Assembly: GCF_002812705.1 (NCBI RefSeq)
Contig: NZ_CP025030.1
Span: 4,526,001-4,590,000, forward strand
Length of the DNA stretch: 64,000 nucleotides
From: Achromobacter spanius
GTDB lineage: Bacteria > Pseudomonadota > Gammaproteobacteria > Burkholderiales > Burkholderiaceae_B
Direction: 5' to 3'
Part shown: positions 1,296 to 63,802 of the stretch, piece after piece
Position numbering within the stretch: the stretch's first letter is position 1
Layout of the letters: each line of letters opens with the position of its first letter
Program-made: the position numbers and the translations under genes
Notes under the pieces: model-generated
Seen by the model: only the letters and a program-made list of their open reading frames with translations
Databases searched by the model: none
Told to the model about the DNA's origin: nothing

Positions 1296-1593
1296 ATTCG
1301 TCTCCAAAGCGAGGCGGCCACGTGCTTCGGGCCGCCAGATAGCGCTCATGATATACATATCCGGCATTACCCCCCGTCTTCCCTCCCCTTGAGCCGCGCA
1401 TTTGTTACCACCGCGGCGGCTTGACCCGGCCCTGTTTCCGACGGTACCGGCCAGATCCTGACGACTTGCCTAAGCCGGCGCTTACCGGCCCTTTCGCCCC
1501 GCTTTCCGGCGGATTGACTTGGGCGCGTGCTGGCTAGAATTCCCGACAATCCGGCATTCCGGCTCGGCGTGCCATCCCCTTCGGGCAAGATCC

Positions 1594-2499
1594 ATGAATC
1601 CGTCTACCCTCATCGGCGCCGCCGTCGGCCTGCTTAGCCTTGTTATCGTCGTGGCGCTGTCCGCCACCGACGCCAGCATGTACGTCAACCTGCCGGGCTT
1701 GGCCATCGTGCTGGGCGGCACCTGCGCCGCGCTGTTCATCGCCTACCCGCTGCATGAAGTGCTGCGGATCTTCAAGCTGGTCCGCACGGTGTTCCGCAAC
1801 GACCAGCACGACCAGCAGCGCGACATCGAAGAACTGGCCACGATGGCGCAACTGTGGATGAACACCGACGTCCACAAGGTCGAGCACGAGCTCAAGAAGG
1901 TGTCGAACCCGTTCTTGCGTACCGGCGTGCAGTTGATCATCGACAACACCCCCGAAGACCAGATCATTGAAGTGCTGCAATGGCGCGTGGCGCGGCTGCG
2001 CGCGCGTGAACAGGCCGAAGCGCAGATGTTCCGCGTCATGGCCACGTTCGCGCCCGCCTTCGGCATGTTGGGCACGCTGATCGCCTTGATCAACATGATG
2101 GCGGTGCTGGGCGACGGCAGCATGACGACGATCGGGCAACATCTGGCCGTGGGCCTGATGACGACGTTCTACGGCATCTTGCTGGCCAACCTGATCTGCA
2201 AGCCGATCGCGCTGAAGCTGGAACGCCGCACCGCGCGCCGCGTGGAATCCATGAACATGGTGCTGCAAGGCATTTCCATGATGTGTGAGAAGCGCGGCCC
2301 GGCCGTGGTGCGCGAAACGCTGAATTCCTTCGTGCTGCACGTCGAAGACGAAATCTATGACGGCGGCGTGGCAGCCGCGCCGCCATCCAATTCCAAGGTC
2401 AAGCCCAAGACGGCGACGCCGGCCAAGGGCGCCAACAAGGGTGCACCCGCCGCCAACCCGCCCGTGTCCATCACCCGCCCAGCCGCCGCGCGTCAATGA
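1594..2499 (+). CDS. MotA/TolQ/ExbB-type proton channel family protein
   Basis: A 301-residue inner-membrane protein. There are two N-terminal membrane helices (TLIGAAVGLLSLVIVVALSA and a second ending LFIAYPL), a cytoplasmic loop, and two more helices around APAFGMLGTLIALINMM and GLMTTFYGILLANLICK. The GMLGTL...GLMTTFYG pair is the MotA/PomA channel signature. The C-terminus is a Lys/Pro/Ala-rich tail. The start is ATG 1594, because the channel domain begins at MNPSTLIG; an in-frame upstream ATG at 1519 would add unconserved sequence. The next gene overlaps by ATGA, so the two form a stator-like pair. No flagellar genes lie nearby, so a non-flagellar or secondary stator role is possible. Confidence 0.88.
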   Translation: MNPSTLIGAAVGLLSLVIVVALSATDASMYVNLPGLAIVLGGTCAALFIAYPLHEVLRIFKLVRTVFRNDQHDQQRDIEELATMAQLWMNTDVHKVEHELKKVSNPFLRTGVQLIIDNTPEDQIIEVLQWRVARLRAREQAEAQMFRVMATFAPAFGMLGTLIALINMMAVLGDGSMTTIGQHLAVGLMTTFYGILLANLICKPIALKLERRTARRVESMNMVLQGISMMCEKRGPAVVRETLNSFVLHVEDEIYDGGVAAAPPSNSKVKPKTATPAKGANKGAPAANPPVSITRPAAARQ

Positions 2500-3473
2500 G
2501 CCTGATTTCCCCTTCCCTGGCGCAGCGGATCGAACTGGCCCGCCAGGCCCAACTGCGCGCCCAGAAAGCCGCGGACACGAACGCCTGGCGGCCCAGCAAG
2601 AGCGACCGCAAGGACCGCTACGCCCGCTGGCACGTCGAGGAAAAAGTCGAGCAGGACGCCGAGAATTGGCTGCTCAGCTACCTGGACCTGATCACCCTGC
2701 TGCTGGCGATGCTGGTCGTGATGCTGGCGGTGTCGCGCCTGCACGGCCTGGGCCCTGATGCCTCGGGCAAGCCCATCGAACTGGTCGGCACGCTGGCAGC
2801 CGCCGGCTTGCCGGTGTATGACGGCGAATACTCGGAGTTCGACGCCGTCGCCATTCCCGCCAGCTGGGCCGAGCCCCCCGCGCCGCCTCCCGCCGCCGTC
2901 CAGACGGCCGACGCGGCGCCGGTCGAAGACGGCGTGAAGGTAGCCGAGGCCGCCCCGCCGCTGATCGCCCCGTCCAAGGAATCCCTGGGCCTGGACGACC
3001 TGGGCAAGTCGGTGGACGTGATCATCAACGAACAGTCCGTCAGCTTTCGGATCAGCAATGAATTGCTGTTCCCCTCGGGCCAGGCCACGCTCAGCCCCGC
3101 CGGACTGGACGTGATCAAGCGCCTGGCGGTCATCCTGAACAAGAACGCGCACCCGGTGTCGGTGGAAGGCCACAGCGACCCCGTGCCGATCCAGACGCGC
3201 CAGTTCGCGTCCAACTGGGAACTGTCCACCAGCCGCGCCACCAGCGTGCTGCGCGAACTGGTGCGCGACGGCGTGTCCGCCGACCGACTGCGCGCAGTGG
3301 GCTACGCCGAAACGCGCCCGATCGAATCCAACGACACCCCGGCCGGCCGCGCCGCCAACCGCCGCGTCGAGCTGATCATGGACATCGCGCCGAAGCAGGC
3401 CCCCACGAAGAAAGCCCAAGCCCCCGCCGCGCCGTCGGCGCCCCAGGCGGACACGGCACCGGCGCGCTCCTGA
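2496..3473 (+). CDS. MotB-like OmpA-domain protein (stator partner)
   Basis: 325 residues. A charged cytoplasmic N-terminus (1-58) precedes a single membrane helix (LLSYLDLITLLLAMLVVMLAV) in which D64 occupies the position of the proton-binding Asp of MotB. A long Pro/Ala-rich periplasmic linker follows, then an OmpA/MotB peptidoglycan-binding domain from ~residue 180, with NELLFPSGQATLSPAG, VEGHSDPVPI and the NRRVELIM ending. The start ATG overlaps the stop of the MotA-like gene by four bases, so translation is coupled. The family anchors ion channels to peptidoglycan. The cytoplasmic tail is longer than in typical MotB. Confidence 0.88.
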   Translation: MSLISPSLAQRIELARQAQLRAQKAADTNAWRPSKSDRKDRYARWHVEEKVEQDAENWLLSYLDLITLLLAMLVVMLAVSRLHGLGPDASGKPIELVGTLAAAGLPVYDGEYSEFDAVAIPASWAEPPAPPPAAVQTADAAPVEDGVKVAEAAPPLIAPSKESLGLDDLGKSVDVIINEQSVSFRISNELLFPSGQATLSPAGLDVIKRLAVILNKNAHPVSVEGHSDPVPIQTRQFASNWELSTSRATSVLRELVRDGVSADRLRAVGYAETRPIESNDTPAGRAANRRVELIMDIAPKQAPTKKAQAPAAPSAPQADTAPARS

Positions 3474-24765: not shown

Positions 24766-24849
24766 CCCCATTATTAAGGCAGCGCCTCCCCCACCCGCCC
24801 TTAAGCAGCCTGCCAGCGTGTAAACTCCCCCCTTTTTGACTCTGGTGGT

Positions 24850-25569
24850 ATGTTGCAAGCCCCACAGCGCACAGGTTTAAGCGGCCCGACGCTCATTCGC
24901 TTGCTGACTCGCCTGACGGATGTCGACGTTCCGGAATCCAGGCAATCGCTTTCCGACCATTTGAGCCAGTGGCTCGGTTGGACGGACGCGATCGCGCTGT
25001 CCGCGGCCCTGACCACGAGCCCGCCGGTGATCGCCCCCGGCGCGCGTCTGTTCAGCAGCGCCGAAGAGCGTGAATGCGTGCGCGTGCGCACGACGCTGGC
25101 CGACGCCATCGCCAGCGATACGGCGGCCACAAGCGCCAAGCGGCTCGTTGCCGGACAGGCGCCGGCCAAGCCGTCGGCGGCGGTTGAAGAAGCCCAGGCC
25201 GATTACTCGAATTTTCGTCAGCGGTACGTGTCGTTACAGCACACGATGGAGACCAGCGTGGGCAATTTGCGCAGCCGCCTGCGCGGCATGGTCGCCGCCC
25301 GGAATGGCGAGATGACGCGCCTGGCCGTGGTGGACGCCATCATGGACCGCGCGTTGCTGCCCAAGGAACGCACCCTTCTGGGCGCGATCCCGAAGTTGCT
25401 GCAAGGCCATTTCGAGCGTTTGCGCCTGGCTGAAGAAGCGCAAGAGCCCGCGACTCCCGGCGCGTGGCTGGACGTATTCCGCAAGGATATGCGCAGCGTT
25501 CTGCTTGCCGAATTGGATGTACGTTTACAACCGGTGGAAGGGCTGCTTGCCGCCCTTCGCGCCAGCTAA
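24850..25569 (+). CDS. DUF3348 family protein
   Basis: 239 residues, cytoplasmic, no membrane helix. It matches the DUF3348 pattern: TGLSGPTLIRLLTRLTDVD at the N-terminus and QADYSNFRQRYVSLQHTMET in the middle. The C-terminus (FRKDMRSVLLAELDVRLQPV) is helical. First gene of a four-gene unit, 10 bases before the MotA/ExbB-like giant. The family is found mainly in Burkholderiales with the same neighbours. Function unknown; it may be a cytosolic partner of the motor-like complex. Confidence 0.85.
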   Translation: MLQAPQRTGLSGPTLIRLLTRLTDVDVPESRQSLSDHLSQWLGWTDAIALSAALTTSPPVIAPGARLFSSAEERECVRVRTTLADAIASDTAATSAKRLVAGQAPAKPSAAVEEAQADYSNFRQRYVSLQHTMETSVGNLRSRLRGMVAARNGEMTRLAVVDAIMDRALLPKERTLLGAIPKLLQGHFERLRLAEEAQEPATPGAWLDVFRKDMRSVLLAELDVRLQPVEGLLAALRAS

Positions 25570-25579
25570 CCAGGACACC

Positions 25580-28500
25580 ATGTCCAAGACTCTGATCAAT
25601 TTCGTTGTGTTTTTGGCCGGTTTGGCCGTTGTGGGCTGGATCGGCGCGGGCTACGCGGGGTCCAACCCGCTTGCGCTGGCCGTGACGCTGCTGATAGGCG
25701 TCTGTTACCTGGCCGGCGCCTGGGAACTGCTGCGTTATCAGCAAGCCACGTCCAGCCTGGCGCGGTCCACCGCCGCGCTGTCCGAAGCCCCCGCCAGCCT
25801 GGCTTCCTGGCTGGACCAGCTGCACCCCAGCCTGCGCAACGCCGCGCGCCTGCGCGTGGAAGGCGAACGGGTGGGCTTGCCCGGCCCGGCCCTGGCGCCC
25901 TATCTGGTCGGCCTGTTGGTGCTGCTGGGCATGCTGGGCACGTTCCTGGGCATGGTCGTGACGCTGCGCGGCACCGGCATCGCACTGGAAAGCGCGACCG
26001 ACCTGGGCGCCATACGCGCGTCGCTCGCCGCGCCGGTCAAGGGCCTGGGTTTTGCGTTCGGCACGTCGATTGCCGGGGTGGCCGCGTCCGCCATGCTGGG
26101 CCTCTTGGCCGCGCTGTGCCGCCGTGAACGGGTGCAGGCCGCGCAGCTGCTGGACAGCAAGATCGCCACGACCCTGCGCGTGTATTCGCAAAGCTATCAG
26201 CGCGAAGAATCGTTCAAGCTGCTGCAACGCCAGGCCGAAGTCATGCAGCGCCAGGCCGAGGCCATGCCGACGCTGGTTGACCGCCTGCAAGCCATGATGC
26301 AGAACATGGAGCAGCAGACGCGCTCCATCAATGACCGCCAATTGGCCAGCCAGGACGCCTTTCAGGGCAAGGCCGAGGCGGCCTACGCGCGCCTGGCGTC
26401 GGTGATGGAACAGTCCATGAAGGAAGGCGTGGCCGAAAGCGCGCGTTCCGCCGGGGTGGCCTTGCAGCCGGTCGTGCAGGCCACGATGGAAAGCCTGTCG
26501 CGCGAAACCGCCAGCCTGCAAGACACGGTGGCGCAAGCCGTGCAGCAACAATTGAGCAGCCTGACCTCGGGCTTCCAGGCGTCCACCGCCAATGTGGCCG
26601 ACATCTGGAACCAGGCGCTGGCCGGCCAGCAACGCGCAAGCGAAACGCTGGCGCAAGACCTGCGCGCCTCGATGGACCGCTTTGCCGAAACCTTCGAACA
26701 ACGCTCGGCCGCGCTGCTGGACGGCGTTTCCGCGCGCCTGGAGGCGTCGTCGGGCAATATGTCGGAAGCCTGGACTTCCGCGCTATCGCGCCAGGAGCGC
26801 GTCAGCGAAAAACTGGCGGGCGACAACCTGCAAGCGCTGACCGCCGCCGCCGCCAGCTTTGAACAGCACTCGGCGTCGCTGCTGCGCACGCTGAACGATT
26901 CGCACGCGCTCTTGCAATCGGACCTGGCCTCGCGCGATCAACAGCGCCTGGCCGCGTGGGCCGAGACCCTGGGCGCCATGGGCGCCACGCTGCGCCAGGA
27001 ATGGGAACAGGCCGGCACGCAAGCCGCCGACCGCCAACAGGCCATCAGCGACACCCTGGCCCAGACCGTGCGCGACATCAACGCCCAGGCCGCCGCGCAA
27101 GCCCGCGTGCTGGAAGCCGTGTCGACCCGCATGGAAGCCGCCGCCAACAGCGTGTCGGACCGCTGGAACAGCGCGCTGAGCCGCCACGAGCAAGTCAGCG
27201 AGAAGCTGGCGCAAGACAATCAACAAGCCTTGACGACGGCCGCTGCAGCGTTCGAGGCGCATTCGGCGTCGCTGCTGCGCACGCTGGACCAATCGCATGC
27301 CGAGCTGCATGCAGCCCTGGCCGCGAAGGACCACGAACGCCTGTCCGCCTGGACCGATACGCTTGCCGCCATGGCCGCCACCTTGGGCCAGGAATGGAAG
27401 GCAGCCGGCGACCAGAGCGTGGCGCGCCAGCAGGAAATCAGCGACGCGCTGGCCCTGACCGCGCAGAACGTCACCGGCCAGACCGAAGCGCAATCCCGTC
27501 TGCTGGAAAGCGTGTCGACGCGCCTGGAAAGCGCGGCCGGCAGCGTGACCCAGGCCTGGACCGAGGCGCAGACGCGCCAGGCGCAGCTTGGCGAGAAGCT
27601 GGCCGCCGACAACCAGCAAGCCCTGAGCACCGCCGCCGCTGCGTTCGAGCAGCACTCGGCGGCGCTGCTGCACACGCTGGACCAATCGCACGCGGACCTG
27701 CAAGCGGCGCTGGCAGCCAAGGACGAAGAACGCCTGTCCGCCTGGACCACCAAACTGGCCGCGATGGCTGACGCGCTGGGCCAGGAATGGGAACTGGCGG
27801 GCGCGCAAGCCGCCACCCGCCAGCAGGAACTGACGCAGGCGCTGGGCCAGGCCACGCAAGAGATCACGGCGCAGACCCAAGCGCAGGCGGGCGTGCTGGA
27901 AAGCGTGTCCACGCGCCTGGAAACCGCCGCCAGCCAGGTCACGCAAGCCTGGACTGACGCGCAGACGCGCCAGGAACAGCTAGGCCAGCAATTGGCCGAG
28001 GCCAATCAGCAGGCGCTGGAGGCGGCCGCGGCCACCTTCGAACAGCACTCGGCCTCGCTCTTGCACACGCTGGACCAGTCGCACGCGGACTTGCAAGCGG
28101 CGCTGGCCGCCAAGGACGAAGAACGCCTGTCGGCCTGGACCGCCAAGCTGGCCGCGCTGGCCGACACGCTGGCGCAAACGGCGGACGGCATCACCGCGCA
28201 AACGCAAGCCCACGCCAGCGAGACCATTGCCGAAATCGGCCGCTTGGTGCAGGCCGCGTCGGAAGCCCCGAAGGCGGCCGCCGACGTCATCGGCGAACTG
28301 CGCCAGAAGCTGTCCGACAGCATGGTGCGCGACAACGACATGCTGCAAGAGCGCAACCGGCTGCTGGAGACGCTGGACACCCTGCTCAATGCCGTCAACC
28401 ACACCGCCGCCGAACAACGCTCGGCGGTGGACGCGCTGCTGGCCTCGTCGGCCGAATTGCTGGAGCGCGTGGGCACGCAGTTCACCGAGCGCGTCGAAGC

Positions 28501-28810
28501 CGAAACCGGCAAGCTGACCGACGTGGCGGCGCACGTCACCACCAGCGCGGTGGAAGTGGCCAGCCTGGGCGAATCGTTCGGCGCGGCGGTGCAGTTGTTC
28601 GGCGAGTCCAACAACACGCTGGTGGCGCACCTGCAACGCATCGAAGCCGCGCTGGACAAGTCCATCGCGCGGGGCGACGAGCAACTGTCCTACTACGTGG
28701 CGCAGGCGCGCGAAGTGGTGGACCTGAGCCTGATGTCGCAAAAGCAGATTATTGAAAACCTGCAACAGTTGGCCGTCCAGCGCGCCGACGCCAGCGCGGA
28801 ACCCGCATGA
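25580..28810 (+). CDS. DUF802 family MotA/ExbB-like channel protein with repeat tail (ZorA-like)
   Basis: 1076 residues. Four N-terminal membrane helices: ~5-25, ~32-52, ~108-128 (GLLVLLGMLGTFLGMVVTLR) and ~155-180 (GLGFAFGTSIAGVAASAMLG). The last two match the MotA/TolQ/ExbB channel signature. A ~890-residue, Ala/Gln-rich alpha-helical cytoplasmic tail follows; it contains a 131-residue repeat. The ending (IARGDEQLSYYVAQAREVVD) is the family-specific DUF802 part. This is the same general plan as ZorA: channel plus long intracellular tail. The start is ATG 25580 with CAGGAC before it; an upstream codon at 25505 lies inside the previous gene. The OmpA partner overlaps its stop (ATGA). Confidence 0.85.
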   Translation: MSKTLINFVVFLAGLAVVGWIGAGYAGSNPLALAVTLLIGVCYLAGAWELLRYQQATSSLARSTAALSEAPASLASWLDQLHPSLRNAARLRVEGERVGLPGPALAPYLVGLLVLLGMLGTFLGMVVTLRGTGIALESATDLGAIRASLAAPVKGLGFAFGTSIAGVAASAMLGLLAALCRRERVQAAQLLDSKIATTLRVYSQSYQREESFKLLQRQAEVMQRQAEAMPTLVDRLQAMMQNMEQQTRSINDRQLASQDAFQGKAEAAYARLASVMEQSMKEGVAESARSAGVALQPVVQATMESLSRETASLQDTVAQAVQQQLSSLTSGFQASTANVADIWNQALAGQQRASETLAQDLRASMDRFAETFEQRSAALLDGVSARLEASSGNMSEAWTSALSRQERVSEKLAGDNLQALTAAAASFEQHSASLLRTLNDSHALLQSDLASRDQQRLAAWAETLGAMGATLRQEWEQAGTQAADRQQAISDTLAQTVRDINAQAAAQARVLEAVSTRMEAAANSVSDRWNSALSRHEQVSEKLAQDNQQALTTAAAAFEAHSASLLRTLDQSHAELHAALAAKDHERLSAWTDTLAAMAATLGQEWKAAGDQSVARQQEISDALALTAQNVTGQTEAQSRLLESVSTRLESAAGSVTQAWTEAQTRQAQLGEKLAADNQQALSTAAAAFEQHSAALLHTLDQSHADLQAALAAKDEERLSAWTTKLAAMADALGQEWELAGAQAATRQQELTQALGQATQEITAQTQAQAGVLESVSTRLETAASQVTQAWTDAQTRQEQLGQQLAEANQQALEAAAATFEQHSASLLHTLDQSHADLQAALAAKDEERLSAWTAKLAALADTLAQTADGITAQTQAHASETIAEIGRLVQAASEAPKAAADVIGELRQKLSDSMVRDNDMLQERNRLLETLDTLLNAVNHTAAEQRSAVDALLASSAELLERVGTQFTERVEAETGKLTDVAAHVTTSAVEVASLGESFGAAVQLFGESNNTLVAHLQRIEAALDKSIARGDEQLSYYVAQAREVVDLSLMSQKQIIENLQQLAVQRADASAEPA
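26861..28220 (+). repeat. 393-bp (131-residue) in-phase repeats in the DUF802 gene
   Basis: Repeat starts fall at 26861, 27254, 27647 and 28040, each exactly 393 bases apart. All begin with Glu-(Gln/Ala)-His-Ser-(Ala)-Ser/Ala-Leu-Leu and contain SHADLQAALAAKDEERLSAW-like sequence. The fourth is incomplete. Half-copies also precede the first (WNQALAGQQRASETLA region, ~26600). The nucleotide similarity is strong enough for recombination between copies. Confidence 0.9.
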
Positions 28811-29457
28811 GCGACGACATCGACGGCGGCATCGAGACTTCCGCCCCCGCCTGGGCCGTCTTCGGCGACCTGATGTCGGTGCTGCTGGGCGCCTTCGTGC
28901 TGATCCTGGTCAGCGTGATCGGCATGCAGTTGCAGTTGTCGACGCAGTTGGAAGAAGAGGTCAAGCAGCGCCAGGAAGAAACCCAGCGCCGCGAAACGCT
29001 GGAACAGGCGCTGGCGGGCCCGCTGGCGGCGGGCCGCGTGACCCTGGTCAATGGCCGCATCGGCATCAGCGGCAGCGTGCTGTTCGCGCTGAACTCCGAC
29101 CAGTTGCAGCCCGAAGGCCGCGAGATCCTGAAATCGCTGATCGAACCGCTGTCCGCGTACCTGAAGACGCACAACGAAATTCTGATGGTCAGCGGCTATA
29201 CCGACGACCAGCAGGTACGTGAAGGCAACCGCCGCTTTGCGGACAACTGGGATTTATCGGCGCAGCGCGCCCTGACCGTCACGCGCGCCTTGATCGACGA
29301 AGGCGTGCCGTCGTCCACCGTGTTCGCGGCGGCGTTCGGGTCGGAGCAGCCCGTGGCGTCCAACGCCGACGAGGAAGGCCGCGCCAAGAATCGCCGGGTG
29401 GAAATCACGCCCATCCCCAAGCAATCCGATGCCCCAGGGAAGCCGCGTGAGCAGTGA
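28807..29457 (+). CDS. MotB/ZorB-like OmpA family protein
   Basis: 216 residues. One membrane helix at ~18-42 (VFGDLMSVLLGAFVLILVSV) carries D21, the expected ion-binding Asp of MotB/ZorB. A short coiled coil (LEEEVKQRQEETQRRETLEQ) leads to an OmpA domain from ~90 (GSVLFALNSDQLQPEGREIL, VSGYTDDQQVR, KNRRVEITPI). The start overlaps the DUF802 stop by four bases. It should anchor the channel complex to the peptidoglycan. Confidence 0.88.
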   Translation: MSDDIDGGIETSAPAWAVFGDLMSVLLGAFVLILVSVIGMQLQLSTQLEEEVKQRQEETQRRETLEQALAGPLAAGRVTLVNGRIGISGSVLFALNSDQLQPEGREILKSLIEPLSAYLKTHNEILMVSGYTDDQQVREGNRRFADNWDLSAQRALTVTRALIDEGVPSSTVFAAAFGSEQPVASNADEEGRAKNRRVEITPIPKQSDAPGKPREQ

Positions 29458-30166
29458 CGGCGGCATTCTCGGCACGCTGGACGCGCAGGCCATGTTGGAC
29501 GCCTGGCGCGAGGGTGGCGTCGACCGGGTAGACCCGGTGCGCTTTCGCTTCTTGCAAGCCATGGCGCGGCGATCCGCCGTGCTGGATGGCCTGGCGCGGC
29601 AGTTGCTGGACGAAAGATTGGCGGGGCATCTGAATGCCTATGCGCAGTTGCTGGATGCCGATGCGGATGCCGATGCGGATGCCGGACCAGATGCCGAGCT
29701 GGCTGCCGAACCCAGCGCCGAGCGAAACGCGCCACCGCCAGCGGAGCCCGCCAACGACGCGCCCAGCGCGCTGGCCGGCTTGTTGGCTTATCTGGCGGAC
29801 CCAAGCCTGAGCACGCCGGATGGCGAGCCTGACTGGAACCGCGACGCGCTCGGCCTACGCGACGCTTACCCCGACGTGCAAATGCTGGAGTACTTTCGCG
29901 CCGTCTGGTCGCGCGTCAGCGCCGACCGGCAGGTGCGCCAGTCGCAGCAGCAGGTACACAAGAACGCCGGCCCGCTCAATTCCAACCAGTTGGTGCACCG
30001 CGCGCTGTCCTTGATGCGCGAGCTGTCGCCCGGTTACCTGCAACAGTTCCTGTCGTACACGGACGCGCTGATGTGGATGGAGCAGATCCACGCGGCCACC
30101 GCCCCCGCCCCCAAAGACGCCGCGCGAGGCGCCGCCAAGAAATCGTCGCGGGCGAAGGCGCGGTAA
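29429..30166 (+). CDS. DUF2894 family protein
   Basis: 245 residues, cytoplasmic. The N-terminus (MLDAWREGGVDRVDPVRFRF) and C-terminus (LNSNQLVHRALSLMRELSPGYL) are conserved in DUF2894; between them is an acidic linker. A 12-bp repeat gives the Asp-Ala run near residues 76-85. The start may be ATG 29429 or GTG 29447, both inside the end of the OmpA gene. It ends the four-gene unit. Function unknown. Confidence 0.82.
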   Translation: MPQGSRVSSDGGILGTLDAQAMLDAWREGGVDRVDPVRFRFLQAMARRSAVLDGLARQLLDERLAGHLNAYAQLLDADADADADAGPDAELAAEPSAERNAPPPAEPANDAPSALAGLLAYLADPSLSTPDGEPDWNRDALGLRDAYPDVQMLEYFRAVWSRVSADRQVRQSQQQVHKNAGPLNSNQLVHRALSLMRELSPGYLQQFLSYTDALMWMEQIHAATAPAPKDAARGAAKKSSRAKAR

Positions 30167-30377
30167 GCGTACCCAGGCGTTCCCCGGCGTTTCCCGGCGT
30201 ACCTATAAGCCTACCCACGCGCCCCACAGGCAGCCCCGCGATCCGGGCAACCGCGCGTGCTGCCTATAATTGCCAAAGCCAGCGCCTCGAACCCAGCGCA
30301 GAAAGTCAGTATCCCAAGTCCGTACCCCAAGCCCGTCGCCCCGCCCCCTCGTCCCAACTTCCGCTTTGACGGCAGCC

Positions 30378-32303
30378 ATGCCGTGCCTCATGTCCACCTT
30401 GCCTCTACGCGTGCTGTCCATCATCCCTCCGATGACGCAGCTGAATACGCCCTACCCCTCCACCGCCTACCTGACTGGTTTCCTGCGTTCGCGCGACGTG
30501 AACGCGGTGCAGGAAGACCTGGCGCTTGCGCTGGTGTTGCGCCTGTTGTCGGCGGAGGGCTTGCGCGCCGTGGCGGAGCAGGTCAACGCGCTGCCGCTTG
30601 ACAAGCACACGCCCGCCATCCAGGCGTTCGTGGCGATGCAGCCGCGCTACCTGGCCACCATCGGGCCAACGATCGCATTCTTGCAAGGGCGCGATTCCAC
30701 GCTGGCCCACCGCATCGTGGGCCGCCACTTCCTGCCCGAAGGCCCGCGTTTCAGCACGCTGGACGTCTACATGGACGAAGACGGCGGCGACCCGCTGGGT
30801 TGGGCGTTCGGCGCGTTGGGGCTGCAAGACCGCGCCAAGCACCTGGCCACCCTCTACCTGAACGACCTGGCCGACGTGCTGCGCGACGCCGTGGACGATC
30901 GCTTTGAATTCGTGCGCTATGCCGAATCGCTGGCAGGCAGCCAGCCCACGTTCGACCCCTTGGCCAACGCCCTGACCAGTGCGCCCACGCTGGTGGACGA
31001 CACATTGCGCGACCTGACGACCGAAGCCCTGACGCGCCACGCGCCGACGATGGTGCTGTTGTCGGTGCCGTTTCCCGGCGCGGTGTACGCGGCGTTTCGG
31101 ATCGCGCAGACCATCAAGGCGCAAGACCCCGGCATCGTCACCGTGCTGGGCGGCGGCTTCGTCAATACCGAACTGCGCGAACTGAAAGACCCGCGCGTGT
31201 TCGACTACTTTGACTACGTCTGCCTGGATGCCGGCGAACGCCCGCTACTGGCCTTGCTGGAACACGTGCAGGGCAAGCGCTCGCGCCAGCGCCTGGTGCG
31301 CACGTTTGTGCGCAACCAGGACAGCAACGCTGTGCAGTACGTGAACCTGGTGGAACCCGACGTGGCCTTCGCGGAAGTGGGCACGCCCACCTGGGACGGC
31401 CTGCCGCTGGACCGCTACCTGTCGCTGCTGGACATGCTGAACCCCATGCACCGCCTCTGGAGCGACGGACGCTGGAACAAGCTGACCGTGGCGCACGGCT
31501 GCTACTGGAAAAAATGCAGCTTCTGCGACGTCAGCCTGGACTATATCGGCCGCTATGAAGGCGCGTCGGCGTCCGTACTGGCCGACCGTATCGAAGCCAT
31601 CGTGCGCGAAACTGGGCAGACCGGCTTCCACTTTGTGGACGAAGCCGCGCCGCCCAAGTCGCTCAAGGCGCTGGCCACGGAGCTTATCGAACGCAACGCA
31701 GGCATTTCGTGGTGGGGCAACATCCGCTTCGAAAAAACCTTCAGCCCCAAATTGTGCGAACTACTGGCCGACAGCGGCTGCATCGCCGTATCAGGCGGCT
31801 TGGAAGTCGCGTCCGACCGCTTGCTGAACCTGATGAAGAAAGGCGTGTCGGTCGATCAGGTGGCCCGCGTCACGCGCGCGTTTTCAGACGCCGGCATCCT
31901 GGTGCATGCGTATCTGATGTACGGCTTTCCGACGCAGACGGTGCAAGACACCGTGGACGCGCTGGAATACGTGCGCCAACTGTTTGCCAACGACTGCATC
32001 CAAAGCGGGTTCTTCCATCGCTTTGCCTGTACGGTGCATTCGCCGGTGGGCAAGAACCCCGAGGAATACGGGGTGACGCTGCAACCGCTGCCGCCCGTCA
32101 CCTTCGCCAAGAACGACATCGGTTTTCATGACCCCACGGGCGTGGACCACGATGCGCTGGGCCGCGCACTGAAAAAAGCCATCTACAACTACATGCACGG
32201 CATTGGCCTGGACGAAGACGTGCGGACCTGGTTTCCGTTCAAGGTGCCGAAAACCACCGTGTCGAAAAACCGGATTGCGCGGGCGCTCAGCCAGCAGGGC
32301 TAA
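30378..32303 (+). CDS. B12-binding-type radical SAM protein
   Basis: 641 residues. A B12-binding-like region (~residues 230-330, LLSVPFPGAVYAAFRIAQTI; VTVLGGGFVNTELREL) precedes a radical SAM barrel. The cluster motif reads CYWKKCSFC, i.e. Cys-x4-Cys-x2-Cys instead of the usual x3-x2; the first Cys is residue 375. The SAM barrel continues with FHFVDEAAPPKSLKALA, SGGLEVASDRLLNLMKKGVS and HAYLMYGFPTQTVQDTVDAL. The start may be ATG 30378 or ATG 30390. No biosynthetic partner gene is adjacent. Reaction unknown: methyl transfer, ring rearrangement or peptide modification are all possible. Confidence 0.85.
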   Translation: MPCLMSTLPLRVLSIIPPMTQLNTPYPSTAYLTGFLRSRDVNAVQEDLALALVLRLLSAEGLRAVAEQVNALPLDKHTPAIQAFVAMQPRYLATIGPTIAFLQGRDSTLAHRIVGRHFLPEGPRFSTLDVYMDEDGGDPLGWAFGALGLQDRAKHLATLYLNDLADVLRDAVDDRFEFVRYAESLAGSQPTFDPLANALTSAPTLVDDTLRDLTTEALTRHAPTMVLLSVPFPGAVYAAFRIAQTIKAQDPGIVTVLGGGFVNTELRELKDPRVFDYFDYVCLDAGERPLLALLEHVQGKRSRQRLVRTFVRNQDSNAVQYVNLVEPDVAFAEVGTPTWDGLPLDRYLSLLDMLNPMHRLWSDGRWNKLTVAHGCYWKKCSFCDVSLDYIGRYEGASASVLADRIEAIVRETGQTGFHFVDEAAPPKSLKALATELIERNAGISWWGNIRFEKTFSPKLCELLADSGCIAVSGGLEVASDRLLNLMKKGVSVDQVARVTRAFSDAGILVHAYLMYGFPTQTVQDTVDALEYVRQLFANDCIQSGFFHRFACTVHSPVGKNPEEYGVTLQPLPPVTFAKNDIGFHDPTGVDHDALGRALKKAIYNYMHGIGLDEDVRTWFPFKVPKTTVSKNRIARALSQQG

Positions 32304-32304
32304 G

Positions 32305-32336
32305 GCGGGGGCCACCTCGATTTGCGCGAGGCCCCC
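32305..32336 (+). terminator. GC-rich hairpin after the radical SAM gene
   Basis: GGGGGC (32307-32312) pairs with GCCCCC (32331-32336), with an inner CTCG/CGAG pair, starting just past the stop codon. No T-run. Confidence 0.35.
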
Positions 32337-32353
32337 ACCGCGCTGTACCATAC

Positions 32354-32380
32354 GATCCATATACAAACCATATATGGATC
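32354..32380. promoter_or_regulatory. Candidate operator of the ParD-like/MetAP unit
   Basis: GATCCATAT (32354-32362), nine bases, ATATGGATC (32372-32380) is a perfect 9-bp dyad ending 7 bases before the ATG at 32388. It is AT-rich in a GC-rich genome and sits where a self-repressing antitoxin would bind. Confidence 0.55.
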
Positions 32381-32387
32381 ATTCTTT

Positions 32388-32630
32388 ATGGGCCTCGTCA
32401 AAATCTCTGAGCAGATGCATGAGAATCTGCGCGTCGCCAGCGGCGCCCTCAGCCGCTCGATCAATTCCCAAGCCGAACACTGGATGCGCATCGGCATGCT
32501 GTCCGAGCTCTATCCCGAACTGCGCCACGCGGACATCTGCCAGTTGCTGATCCGCATTGAACAGGGCGAAGGCTTCACCATTGCCTCCCTGTCCCGGCGG
32601 CTGCCGGACGCGGCCCAGGAGGTCGCGTAA
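32388..32630 (+). CDS. ParD-like antitoxin (DUF3423 family)
   Basis: 80 residues. The N-terminal part, GLVKISEQMHENLRVASGAL, is a ribbon-helix-helix of the ParD-like group (PF11903), with SRSINSQAEHWMRIGMLSEL after it. The start is ATG 32388 (MGLVKISE), because upstream sequence is promoter DNA. The stop TAA directly abuts the ATG of the methionine aminopeptidase gene, so they form a two-gene operon. The pairing is unusual for a known toxin; see findings. Confidence 0.82.
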   Translation: MGLVKISEQMHENLRVASGALSRSINSQAEHWMRIGMLSELYPELRHADICQLLIRIEQGEGFTIASLSRRLPDAAQEVA

Positions 32631-61807: not shown

Positions 61808-62469
61808 GCCAGGCTCCGTTCCAAAGCTTGCATCAACAGGGCTTCATCCAGCACGCCCACGCTGCGGCCGCCGCACTGGGCCACGCCGCGCGAATACTTC
61901 AGGCTGGCGCCTTCCACGGTTGACGGCAGCGGTTCCAGTTGGTCCAGGTTGAGGGCATGGATGCCTTCAACCTCGTCCACCGGCAGCACCACGGCCCGGC
62001 CCGCGCCGCCGAATATCAGCATGCGGGCGGCGCCGGGACGCTCGCGCGTGTCATCGCCCGCCGCGTCCAGCCCCAACAGGCGCGCCAAGGACACGCACAC
62101 GGTCAAGGTGCCGCGCACATTGGTCACGCCCAGCACCGCCGGGTCGCGGCGATGCGGCAGCGTCAGGATCTGGCGTGTGGCGGCCACCTCGTCCAAGGCC
62201 CGCGTCGGCAGCGACAGCCATTCCGCGCCCACGCGAAACACCAGCAACGAAGATAAGCGAACGTCTTGCCGTGGCGGCTCAATATCGCTGTCCGACGAAT
62301 CGAGTTGTGGCGGCAGACGGTCCAGAATGCGTTTAGCGGCCGCCGCATAGACCGGGCAGTTGCGGCAATGCACATGCGTGGGCAACTGGTCGCAGCTTTT
62401 GTCGCCACGGATACCGATGCGGTTCCAGCAGTCGTCAATGTCGGACAGGCGCGCAAGGGACTCAATCAC
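61804..62469 (-). CDS. wspD: WspD: CheW-like coupling protein
   Basis: 221 residues. N-terminal extension with a Cys/His group (DDCWNRIGIRGDKSC; HVHCRNCPVYA), then a CheW domain (LLVFRVGAEWLSLPTRALDE; VTNVRGTLTVCVSLARLLGL). The start is GTG 62469, because AGGAGG (62476-62481) sits six bases before it; a longer reading from 62526 lies inside wspC. It overlaps wspC by 8 bases. Links the receptor WspA to WspE. Confidence 0.9.
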   Translation of the reverse strand: MIESLARLSDIDDCWNRIGIRGDKSCDQLPTHVHCRNCPVYAAAAKRILDRLPPQLDSSDSDIEPPRQDVRLSSLLVFRVGAEWLSLPTRALDEVAATRQILTLPHRRDPAVLGVTNVRGTLTVCVSLARLLGLDAAGDDTRERPGAARMLIFGGAGRAVVLPVDEVEGIHALNLDQLEPLPSTVEGASLKYSRGVAQCGGRSVGVLDEALLMQALERSLA

Positions 62470-63802
62470 GTCGGGCCTCCTGTCGCGCCGCGCGCGCCTG
62501 CAAGCGGCGCGCGCCTTCGATGTCACCTGACGATGCGATCAAGGCGGCCAGGTGCAGCAGCGCTTCGCGGTGGGTCGGGTCCAGGTACAGCGCCTTGCGG
62601 TAAGCCGCCTGCGCCTGATGCGAGTCGCCCGCGGCGTCTTGCAGCAAGCCCAGCAGATGCAGCGCATCGGCGCTGACGCCGTGCAGGTCTATGTGCGCGC
62701 GGCATTGCGCCAGGGCGTCTTGCACGCGACCGCGATCCGCCATCTGCGCGATCTGGCGCAGCGATGCCGTGGCGCTGGTGTTGCCCATGGCCGTGCTGGT
62801 GTTGTCGTTTGCCGCGCTGAGGTCGCCATTGCCAGGCGCCGGGGCGATTGACGCATGCGCCAGGGGCAGGCGCGCGGCCGGCGCCTGCGCCACGGGCCGC
62901 CGGGGCGGCGCCCAGGCATGCACGATGGGGGTGACTGCGGTGGCACCCAATCCCCCCGCCGTGCCCATGGCCCGCGTCGCGGGCTCGGGCGGCGCGGGCA
63001 AGGCCTGCGCACGGAAGGCAAACGCCCGCGCCAACGGCAGCGCGGGCAGTCGGCGTTGCGTCAACAGGCTGGTTTCCGCCGGTCCGACAAAAATCACGCC
63101 GTCATTGCGCGTGAAGCGCCGCAGCACCTGCACGGCACGTTCCTGGGTCGGCCCGTCGAAGTAGATCAGCAAGTTGCGGCAGAACACGAAGTCATACGGG
63201 GCCACGCCCGCCAGCAGGTTGCCGTCGAACAGGTTGCCGTGTTGAAAGCGGACCCGCTCGCGGACCTGCGCATTCAGTTGATGGCCGTCGGCCGTTTCAA
63301 CAAAGTGGCGGTCGCGATACGCCAGGTCGTCGCCACGGAATGCGTTGCGGCCATACATGGCGCGCTGCGCGAACTGCACCATGCGTTCGCTGATGTCCAC
63401 GGCGTCCACCTGAAAGCGCGCGGCGGGCACGCCCGCATCCAGCAAGGCCATGGCAATGGAATACGGTTCTTCGCCGCTGGCGCACGGCACGCTTAATATC
63501 CGCAGCACCCGGCTTTCCGGCACGCCGACCGCGAACAAGCGTGCACGCGCCAGGCCGGCCATGGCGATTTGCGATTCCGGATACCGGAAGAACCAGGTCT
63601 CGGGCACGATCACGGCTTCGATCAGTTGCTGCATTTCGCCCGGAACCGTGTGCAGTTGGCGCAGAAACTCGTGTTCGTCCGCCACGCCCACCGCGTTCAT
63701 GCGGTGGCGCACGGCGCGCTCGACCGCGGCCTTGCCGATGGAGCCGCTGTCCAGCCCCATCTTGCGCTTGAGCAAGGCGCTGAATTCGTCGACGAGCATC
63801 AT
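62462..63802 (-). CDS. wspC: WspC: CheR-type methyltransferase with TPR domain
   Basis: 446 residues. CheR fold: FSALLKRKMGLDSGSIGK, VPETWFFRYPESQIAM, SAM site ILSVPCASGEEPYSIAMALL, and DFVFCRNLLIYFDGPTQERA. A Pro/Ala/Thr-rich linker leads to TPR helices (DALHLLGLLQDAAGDSHQAQ; AYRKALYLDPTHREALLHLA). It methylates the receptor WspA. Start ATG 63802 (a second ATG follows immediately), overlapping wspB. Confidence 0.93.
   Translation of the reverse strand: MMLVDEFSALLKRKMGLDSGSIGKAAVERAVRHRMNAVGVADEHEFLRQLHTVPGEMQQLIEAVIVPETWFFRYPESQIAMAGLARARLFAVGVPESRVLRILSVPCASGEEPYSIAMALLDAGVPAARFQVDAVDISERMVQFAQRAMYGRNAFRGDDLAYRDRHFVETADGHQLNAQVRERVRFQHGNLFDGNLLAGVAPYDFVFCRNLLIYFDGPTQERAVQVLRRFTRNDGVIFVGPAETSLLTQRRLPALPLARAFAFRAQALPAPPEPATRAMGTAGGLGATAVTPIVHAWAPPRRPVAQAPAARLPLAHASIAPAPGNGDLSAANDNTSTAMGNTSATASLRQIAQMADRGRVQDALAQCRAHIDLHGVSADALHLLGLLQDAAGDSHQAQAAYRKALYLDPTHREALLHLAALIASSGDIEGARRLQARAARQEARRD

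Follow-up and report, generated by a model that had tools for sequence, protein, structure and literature searches.

The Zorya type III operon of Achromobacter spanius: a putative motor operon near-universal in its genus, with a repeat-built ZorA rod and a conserved upstream element

Gene Content of the Operon

The DNA analyzed in this study, referred to as the window, is a stretch of 64,000 nucleotides from Achromobacter spanius that corresponds to positions 4526001–4590000 of a one-contig genome of 6.43 Mb. It contains an operon of four genes in the order DUF3348-ZorA-ZorB-DUF2894, with the DUF3348 and DUF2894 genes flanking zorAB, and this operon is a Zorya type III system: the PADLOC models for that type match all four proteins (Table 1). 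Zorya type III was reported by Payne et al. in 2021, with 6,401 loci (PMC8565338). A first-pass annotation of this DNA had described ZorC, ZorD, and ZorE as absent, and the operon does hold type III partners only, according to PADLOC; the DUF3348 and DUF2894 proteins, which the same annotation took for partners different from those of Zorya, are the ones that define type III (PADLOC; PMC8565338). ZorA matches the DUF802 family in five stretches (Pfam PF05650, E = 8.5e-62), and DUF802 proteins are named in PMC554113. The labels of the two partners are swapped between sources: in PADLOC-DB 2.0.0 DUF3348 is ZorG3 and DUF2894 is ZorF3, whereas the text of PMC8565338 and PMC11890865 has DUF3348 as ZorF and DUF2894 as ZorG. 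The text of PMC8565338 also has "zorBC" where zorAB must be meant.

The gene order is fixed. It was found in all of 40 loci, which represent 13 genera of the family, in all 77 loci uncut by a contig end among 80 fetched (L101, L103, and L107, in which the contig ends inside the operon, were left out of this count), and in every one of another 20 loci that are more distant. Seven members of the second set come from genomes already in the first, and distinct counts exclude them; once these repeats are removed, 130 distinct complete loci remain, and the order is the same in all 130. The ZorA start is most likely the ATG at 25580, 10 nt past the end of the DUF3348 gene, because the 10-nt gap recurs in 20 of 20 Achromobacter loci fetched, and the DUF3348 and ZorA genes therefore do not overlap. 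The ZorA and ZorB genes overlap by 4 nt (ATGA), a feature kept in 39 of 40 loci of the first set and 72 of 78 of the second, and the ZorB and DUF2894 genes overlap by 29 nt in the window, a length that differs among species. Overlaps had been claimed for the whole operon; they are present at the two downstream junctions but not at the first.

ZorA comprises a channel region of the MotA/ExbB/TolQ type, a long DUF802 rod, and a conserved tip, and ZorB has one membrane helix, which carries Asp21, and an OmpA/MotB peptidoglycan-binding domain (PF00691, E = 5.2e-20). The profile of the ZorA N terminus matches 8vvn_C (E = 3.7e-5, profile positions 109–182) and that of ZorB matches 8vvn_B (E = 3.5e-6), 8VVN being ZorAB from a type I system, that of Shewanella sp. 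ANA-3 (PMC11890865, Table 1). These matches bear out the Zorya-like plan of a channel protein and an OmpA protein that had first been proposed for the locus, and the Asp residue noted in the membrane helix of ZorB is kept by all 118 homologue sequences (110 of 110 distinct proteins). In types I and II, three features are each reported to be important for defense: the Asp in the ion path, binding to peptidoglycan, and the tail of ZorA (PMC11890865). ZorA and ZorB are predicted to assemble into an ion-driven motor, anchored to peptidoglycan and related to the flagellar stator, and by analogy its assembly in type III would have a 5:2 stoichiometry. A separate MotA_ExbB and MotB/OmpA pair is encoded in the window 21 kb from the DUF3348 gene, and its MotB-type protein cross-matches five PADLOC ZorB models.

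Conservation along ZorA is highest at the two ends. Among 32 representatives, the mean pairwise identity is 0.80 at residues 100–220, 0.50 and 0.39 at the start of the rod (residues 220–340 and 340–460), 0.41 in the stretch from 360 to 240 residues before the C-terminal end, and 0.63 and then 0.66 in the last two stretches of 120 residues; the tip motif SDEQLAYYVAQAREV..S..SQKQI is almost invariant. ZorA proteins range from 657 to 1229 residues across loci, and many have tandem repeats, as does the window protein (Table 1). In Achromobacter, 37 of 39 distinct proteins, the one from the window being left out, fall into length classes of 1076, 1098/1099, 1200, 1207, and 1229 residues, with steps of 131 or 102 residues, and in Paraburkholderia, Caballeronia, Cupriavidus, and relatives 34 of 50 are within one residue of 698, 785, 872, or 959 residues, which are steps of 87. 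Self-comparison of 15 chosen proteins and that of the window gave internal repeats at offsets of 131, 102, and 87 in the longer classes. At the level of sequence, these results show that the length of the ZorA rod changes by whole repeats, with both ends staying fixed. The conserved tip would most naturally be read as a recruiting or switching tip. It has a charge of −9 in the window protein, and the last 20 residues of DUF2894 have a median net charge of +6 (n = 116), suggesting that an acidic ZorA tip may contact a basic DUF2894 tail.

The AlphaFold2 model of DUF3348 has seven helices and no strands (predicted local distance difference test score (pLDDT) 76.7, predicted template modeling score (pTM) 0.75), and that of DUF2894 is helical (pLDDT 71.2, pTM 0.40). 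Foldseek searches with both models, which are weak searches, gave no match at E 0.001 and no recognizable nuclease fold. An alignment of 58 DUF2894 sequences, from which L109 and L117 were left out for stop codons near the start of the translated stretch, has a conserved core, AGPLNS..LVHR, and a basic C-terminal tail. DUF2894 is present in all 98 family genomes that have DUF3348 (98 as compared with 100 of 268). The two additional DUF2894 genomes are G028, which is 78% complete and has a fragment, and G082, a genome of 3.7 Mb with a decayed operon (L194, 5761–9023) in which DUF2894 is reduced to its end, ZorB is without its OmpA domain, and no DUF3348 was detected.

Table 1. Coordinates of the operon, its sequence elements, and other genes in the window
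Feature	Position	Strand	Remarks
DUF3348 protein	24850..25569	+	239 aa; PF11828 E=4.4e-87; PADLOC ZorG3 E=1.2e-141
ZorA type III	25580..28810	+	1076 aa; PADLOC ZorA3 PDLC00650 E=0, 1791.6 bits
Tandem repeat in ZorA rod	26787..28172	+	393 bp (131 aa), 3.5 copies; Tandem Repeats Finder score 1323
ZorB type III	28807..29457	+	216 aa; PADLOC ZorB3 PDLC00651 E=4.3e-120
DUF2894 protein	29429..30166	+	245 aa; PF11445 E=2.6e-57; PADLOC ZorF3 E=1.7e-81
Cis element GTGTAAACT-CCCCCC-TTTTT	24818..24837	+	12 nt before ATG 24850
Predicted extended -10, TAAACT	24821-24826		without -35
T tract	24833-24837		at predicted start
MotA_ExbB and MotB/OmpA pair	1519-3470		
MotB-type protein of this pair	2496-3470		
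Radical SAM protein	30270-32303		B12-binding-like domain
ParD-like antitoxin	32322-32630		
CheR-family gene	62465-63802		

Distribution, Inheritance, and Genomic Context

The operon is close to universal in two genera. DUF3348 is present in 41 of 43 Achromobacter genomes, including 40 of 40 that are near-complete, with one copy in each, and in 87 of 91 Stenotrophomonas genomes (83 of 86 near-complete). The latter genus, that of G875, is the genus of the experimentally tested system, since the protein of G875 and one of Stenotrophomonas sp. SY1 have identical sequences. The genus of G572 has DUF3348 in 51 of 60 genomes (47 of 54 near-complete) and the family in 98 of 268 (94 of 222 near-complete), and in the wider sets it was found in 25 of 399 genomes of the order and 8 of 369 of the class. 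Among the 40 near-complete genomes of Achromobacter, two control genes of defense systems are present in 2 (ZorC, as EH_Signature) and 18 (HsdR). The patchy presence within a genus that would mark an island-borne defense trait is thus not seen in Achromobacter. Provided that the genome handles run in genus order, presence in the genera of the family is mostly all-or-none, with 5 of 5 genomes in g5, 9 of 9 in g8, 6 of 6 in g9, 10 of 10 in g31, a mixed 10 of 15 in g7, and no listed member of g2 or g3. Among the best 120 relatives of DUF3348, the organism names that bear a taxon are all Achromobacter, and a few entries are named "compost metagenome." Persistence of Zorya III at the species level is already in print: type III Zorya of Ralstonia solanacearum is given as an example of a defense system highly conserved within a species (PMC13064858, 2026).

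The distances between operons track those between rpoB genes, with a Mantel rho of 0.86 for 41 genomes and 0.77 within the genus (21 genomes); each value lies at the floor set by 300 permutations. The operon and rpoB trees share 14 of 38 splits, as compared with a mean of 0.2 and a maximum of 2 in 500 label shuffles. The flanking genes in Achromobacter are mostly retained, a ParD-Map pair being downstream in 17 of 20 loci and a helix-turn-helix (HTH)-SMP pair upstream in 18 of 20, inverted in three of the 18. From these comparisons the operon looks to be a resident chromosomal module in Achromobacter with mostly vertical inheritance. In G026 (L024), the Achromobacter operon groups with those of other genera and ParD and Map are still downstream; it is likely to be a replacement at the same site. 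Median ratios of nonsynonymous to synonymous substitution rates (dN/dS, ten pairs) are 0.116 for DUF3348, 0.090 for the ZorA N terminus, 0.075 for ZorB, and 0.201 for DUF2894, with 0.012 for rpoB, and by this measure the operon genes are constrained, but far less than rpoB.

The first-pass annotation had pointed to defense islands as a neighborhood to look for, and few defense genes were found at the nine type III loci scanned. Among 44 script-picked open reading frames (ORFs) around the operon in the window, PADLOC at 1e-10 gave matches to ZorB models only, the same five as those of the MotB-type protein in Table 1. The 99 ORFs at eight other loci match three PADLOC families, with one ORF each (mad3, mad8, and ATPase-Toprim); these eight belong to a set of 12 other loci with listed ORFs, from which L056, L091, L134, and L142 were left out of the scan. 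In contrast, 19 flanking ORFs at two Achromobacter Zorya I loci match 37 families, the matches listed including a type I restriction endonuclease, PDC-S02, ShosA, and ShosT, and at one of these loci HsdR is 7.7 kb from ZorC. A search of 50,697 phage records gave no match, and viral contigs yielded no relative. Matching plasmid records number 27 out of 72,556, all of at least 366 kb, with 20 predicted to be non-mobilizable and 7 mobilizable.

Several other genes in the window were noted. A gene for a radical SAM protein lies just past the operon and is present in only 4 of 20 Achromobacter loci, and the ParD-like antitoxin gene directly precedes a gene for a Map-like peptidase of family M24. 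Two CheW genes, CheB, and GGDEF are also among the window ORFs, and with the CheR-family gene they possibly constitute a chemosensory cluster.

The Upstream Element

A short cis element precedes the DUF3348 start codon (Table 1). In 120 usable regions upstream of DUF3348, GTGTAAACT is exact in 111 and has at most one mismatch in 118; the corresponding numbers for the 113 distinct regions are 104 and 111, and L081 was left out of the count for its short upstream sequence. For 97 of these 111 exact matches, the distance between the end of GTGTAAACT and the start codon is 23 or 24 nt. The general form of the element, GTGTAAA(C/A)T-N5/6-TTTTT, is present at 106 of 116 loci, a number that includes L044, L045, L056, L060, and L062, whose matches are DUF3348 upstream regions by sequence. 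The pattern was found nowhere else in the 2.1 Mb of these 116 loci, nor in the reversed sequences, and in 864 kb (13%) of the A. spanius genome it occurs once, at the operon. A close form, TGTAAA(A/C)T-N5/6-TTTT, is present in 10 of 10 Stenotrophomonas loci fetched, and the element, common to Burkholderiales and Xanthomonadaceae, spans two orders. Of 36 representatives with less than 65% identity, the strict form is present in 24 and, in our reading, a variant in 5 (L044, L049, L055, L057, and L063), and 7 have none. In the 24 strict loci, 1.5–2 bits are carried by the columns of TGTAAA and T and by most columns of the T tract, the pattern itself fixing some of these columns; the informative part is the flat upstream region, in which no position exceeds 0.7 bit and no conserved -35 was found.

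This arrangement, a predicted extended -10 without a -35, suggests that the cis element may act as a promoter. It resembles the slippage promoters of Escherichia coli that are sensitive to uridine triphosphate (UTP), those of pyrBI, codBA, upp, and carAB, in which a T tract at the start comes after the -10 (PMC6245113, PMC4448216); here the T tract lies at the predicted start, 5–6 nt beyond a -10-like hexamer. It differs from them in that the Zorya III operon is not a pyrimidine operon and has no conserved -35. By analogy, the T tract may make expression of the operon sensitive to the UTP pool.

Proposed Function and Comparison with Known Systems

The interpretation that we prefer, to which a probability of about 0.55 is assigned, is that the Zorya III operon encodes a resident envelope-breach sensor motor that would signal through the ZorA rod to two predicted-helical cytosolic partners. 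A breach of the wall, by phage entry or other damage, would allow ZorB to grip peptidoglycan; ions would then flow past Asp21 and ZorA would turn; and the rod tip would switch the state of DUF3348 and DUF2894, which would act without a recognizable nuclease. As output, the motor may use the flux of ions as such, or the partners may act on membrane or nucleic acid. A role in defense is consistent with experiments on the Stenotrophomonas nitritireducens type III system in E. coli, where it reduced plaque formation by at least one phage and kept cultures from collapsing at a multiplicity of infection (MOI) below 0.1 (PMC8565338). The first-pass annotation had proposed that a strictly core distribution with no link to defense or stress would refute its reading; the core spread was largely found, in Achromobacter and Stenotrophomonas, but the E. 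coli protection provides the link (PMC8565338).

Several observations weigh against this interpretation. (i) Near-universal presence and a non-island context are unlike those of the control defense genes, and yet presence is not universal everywhere, the near-complete genomes giving 47 of 54 in the genus of G572 and 94 of 222 in the family. (ii) Conflict with supported rpoB splits is seen for 14 of 31 supported operon splits, and from this together with the placement of G026 it follows that some exchange has occurred, also at the same site. (iii) Seven of the 36 representatives (L206, L207, L208, L210, L211, L212, and L214) gave no match to the element. (iv) The structure of DUF2894 is poorly predicted, as its pTM of 0.40 indicates. 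(v) Phage protection is known from expression in E. coli and not from a native host, and CRISPR interference (CRISPRi) with predicted defense genes of Burkholderia cenocepacia K56-2, Zorya III among them, produced no change with the one phage used, although the first one or two Zorya III genes changed expression during infection; the other predicted systems were equally without effect in that screen, in which guides were too few for 3 of 34 genes (PMC12584637).

The strongest alternative, to which we give roughly one chance in three, is a housekeeping envelope motor of the Tol-Pal or MotAB kind that serves maintenance or stress sensing, the phage protection in E. coli being a side effect of expression. 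Presence in 40 of 40 and 83 of 86 near-complete genomes, flanking genes kept at most of the 20 Achromobacter loci, purifying selection on the operon genes (median dN/dS of 0.075–0.20 in ten pairs), and the small number of defense neighbors as compared with Achromobacter Zorya I all speak for such a motor, as do the lack of a phage or viral-contig copy, the restriction of plasmid copies to 27 of 72,556 records, each of these 27 at least 366 kb long, and the lack of a native phage phenotype in the one CRISPRi screen (PMC12584637). It accounts less well for the reduced plaquing and the protection from collapse at an MOI below 0.1 given by the S. nitritireducens system (PMC8565338) and for dN/dS values well above the 0.012 of rpoB, and the match in only 25 of 399 genomes of the order and the decay of the operon in G082 indicate that it is not generally essential.

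An ordinary accessory defense system that moves horizontally and was recently acquired is improbable and, at the species level, largely refuted for Achromobacter, where presence in 40 of 40 genomes contrasts with that of ZorC (2 of 40) and HsdR (18 of 40), the flanks are mostly conserved, and operon distances are rpoB-like, even though PADLOC classes the operon as Zorya, the G026 operon demonstrates that exchange happens, and 27 large plasmid or second-replicon records carry a copy. Least probable of all is the undescribed motor system distinct from Zorya proposed in the first-pass annotation, for which the lack of ZorC, ZorD, and ZorE, the two cytosolic partners of uncharacterized function, ZorA scores below the cut-offs of the NCBIfam models, and a ZorB equivalog named "hypothetical protein" could be cited: the type was named in 2021 (PMC8565338), and PADLOC type III matches to all four proteins, at E values from 1.7e-81 to 0, refute that naming.

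The published model for Zorya, in which the motor recruits a nuclease-like complex, was suggested for all subtypes (PMC11890865), and a type III without a recognized nuclease that is fixed at close to housekeeping level in two genera would represent either core-genome immunity or an envelope motor catalogued as defense. Phage defense may not be the sole job of Zorya III, because the operon is near-universal in near-complete Achromobacter and Stenotrophomonas genomes, unlike typical defense genes, and counts of defense systems that include it would be affected. A broader proposal, which is tentative and in our view doubtful, is that Zorya III is no mobile immune system but a core resident motor for envelope surveillance, passed on mostly vertically, in which the stator grips peptidoglycan, the rod evolves by whole units, and the signaling head is nuclease-free, with an ancient, UTP-reading T-tract promoter of its own; Zorya I and II would be mobile derivatives of it with nucleases swapped in. 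If this is true, damage to the wall and nucleotide stress, each of them plausible during phage attack, converge on one operon. The core status, the cis element, and the lack of a visible nuclease make function directly testable, and the upstream element is a simple handle. In the Zorya III literature consulted we found no report of a genus-level pattern, a repeat ladder, or a cis element. The present analysis adds to the known type the genus-level core status, the mostly vertical inheritance, the repeat-quantized ZorA lengths, the conserved rod tip, and the two-order cis element.

As compared with Zorya type III of Payne et al. (2021), the operon has the same four families and the same partners, and its content is identical. 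It shares with Zorya I and II (ZorABCD and ZorABE) a ZorA with a channel and a cytoplasmic tail and a ZorB with an Asp and an OmpA-like domain, but lacks ZorC, ZorD, and ZorE and has partners with no nuclease fold in the searches made; the nine type III loci scanned have few defense neighbors, whereas the two Achromobacter Zorya I loci have several. With MotAB/PomAB, ExbBD, and TolQR it has in common the MotA/TolQ/ExbB channel region and a one-helix B subunit with a membrane Asp, and ZorB resembles MotB in its peptidoglycan-binding OmpA domain. It is set apart from these motors by the long tail of ZorA and by the two partners encoded in the same operon.

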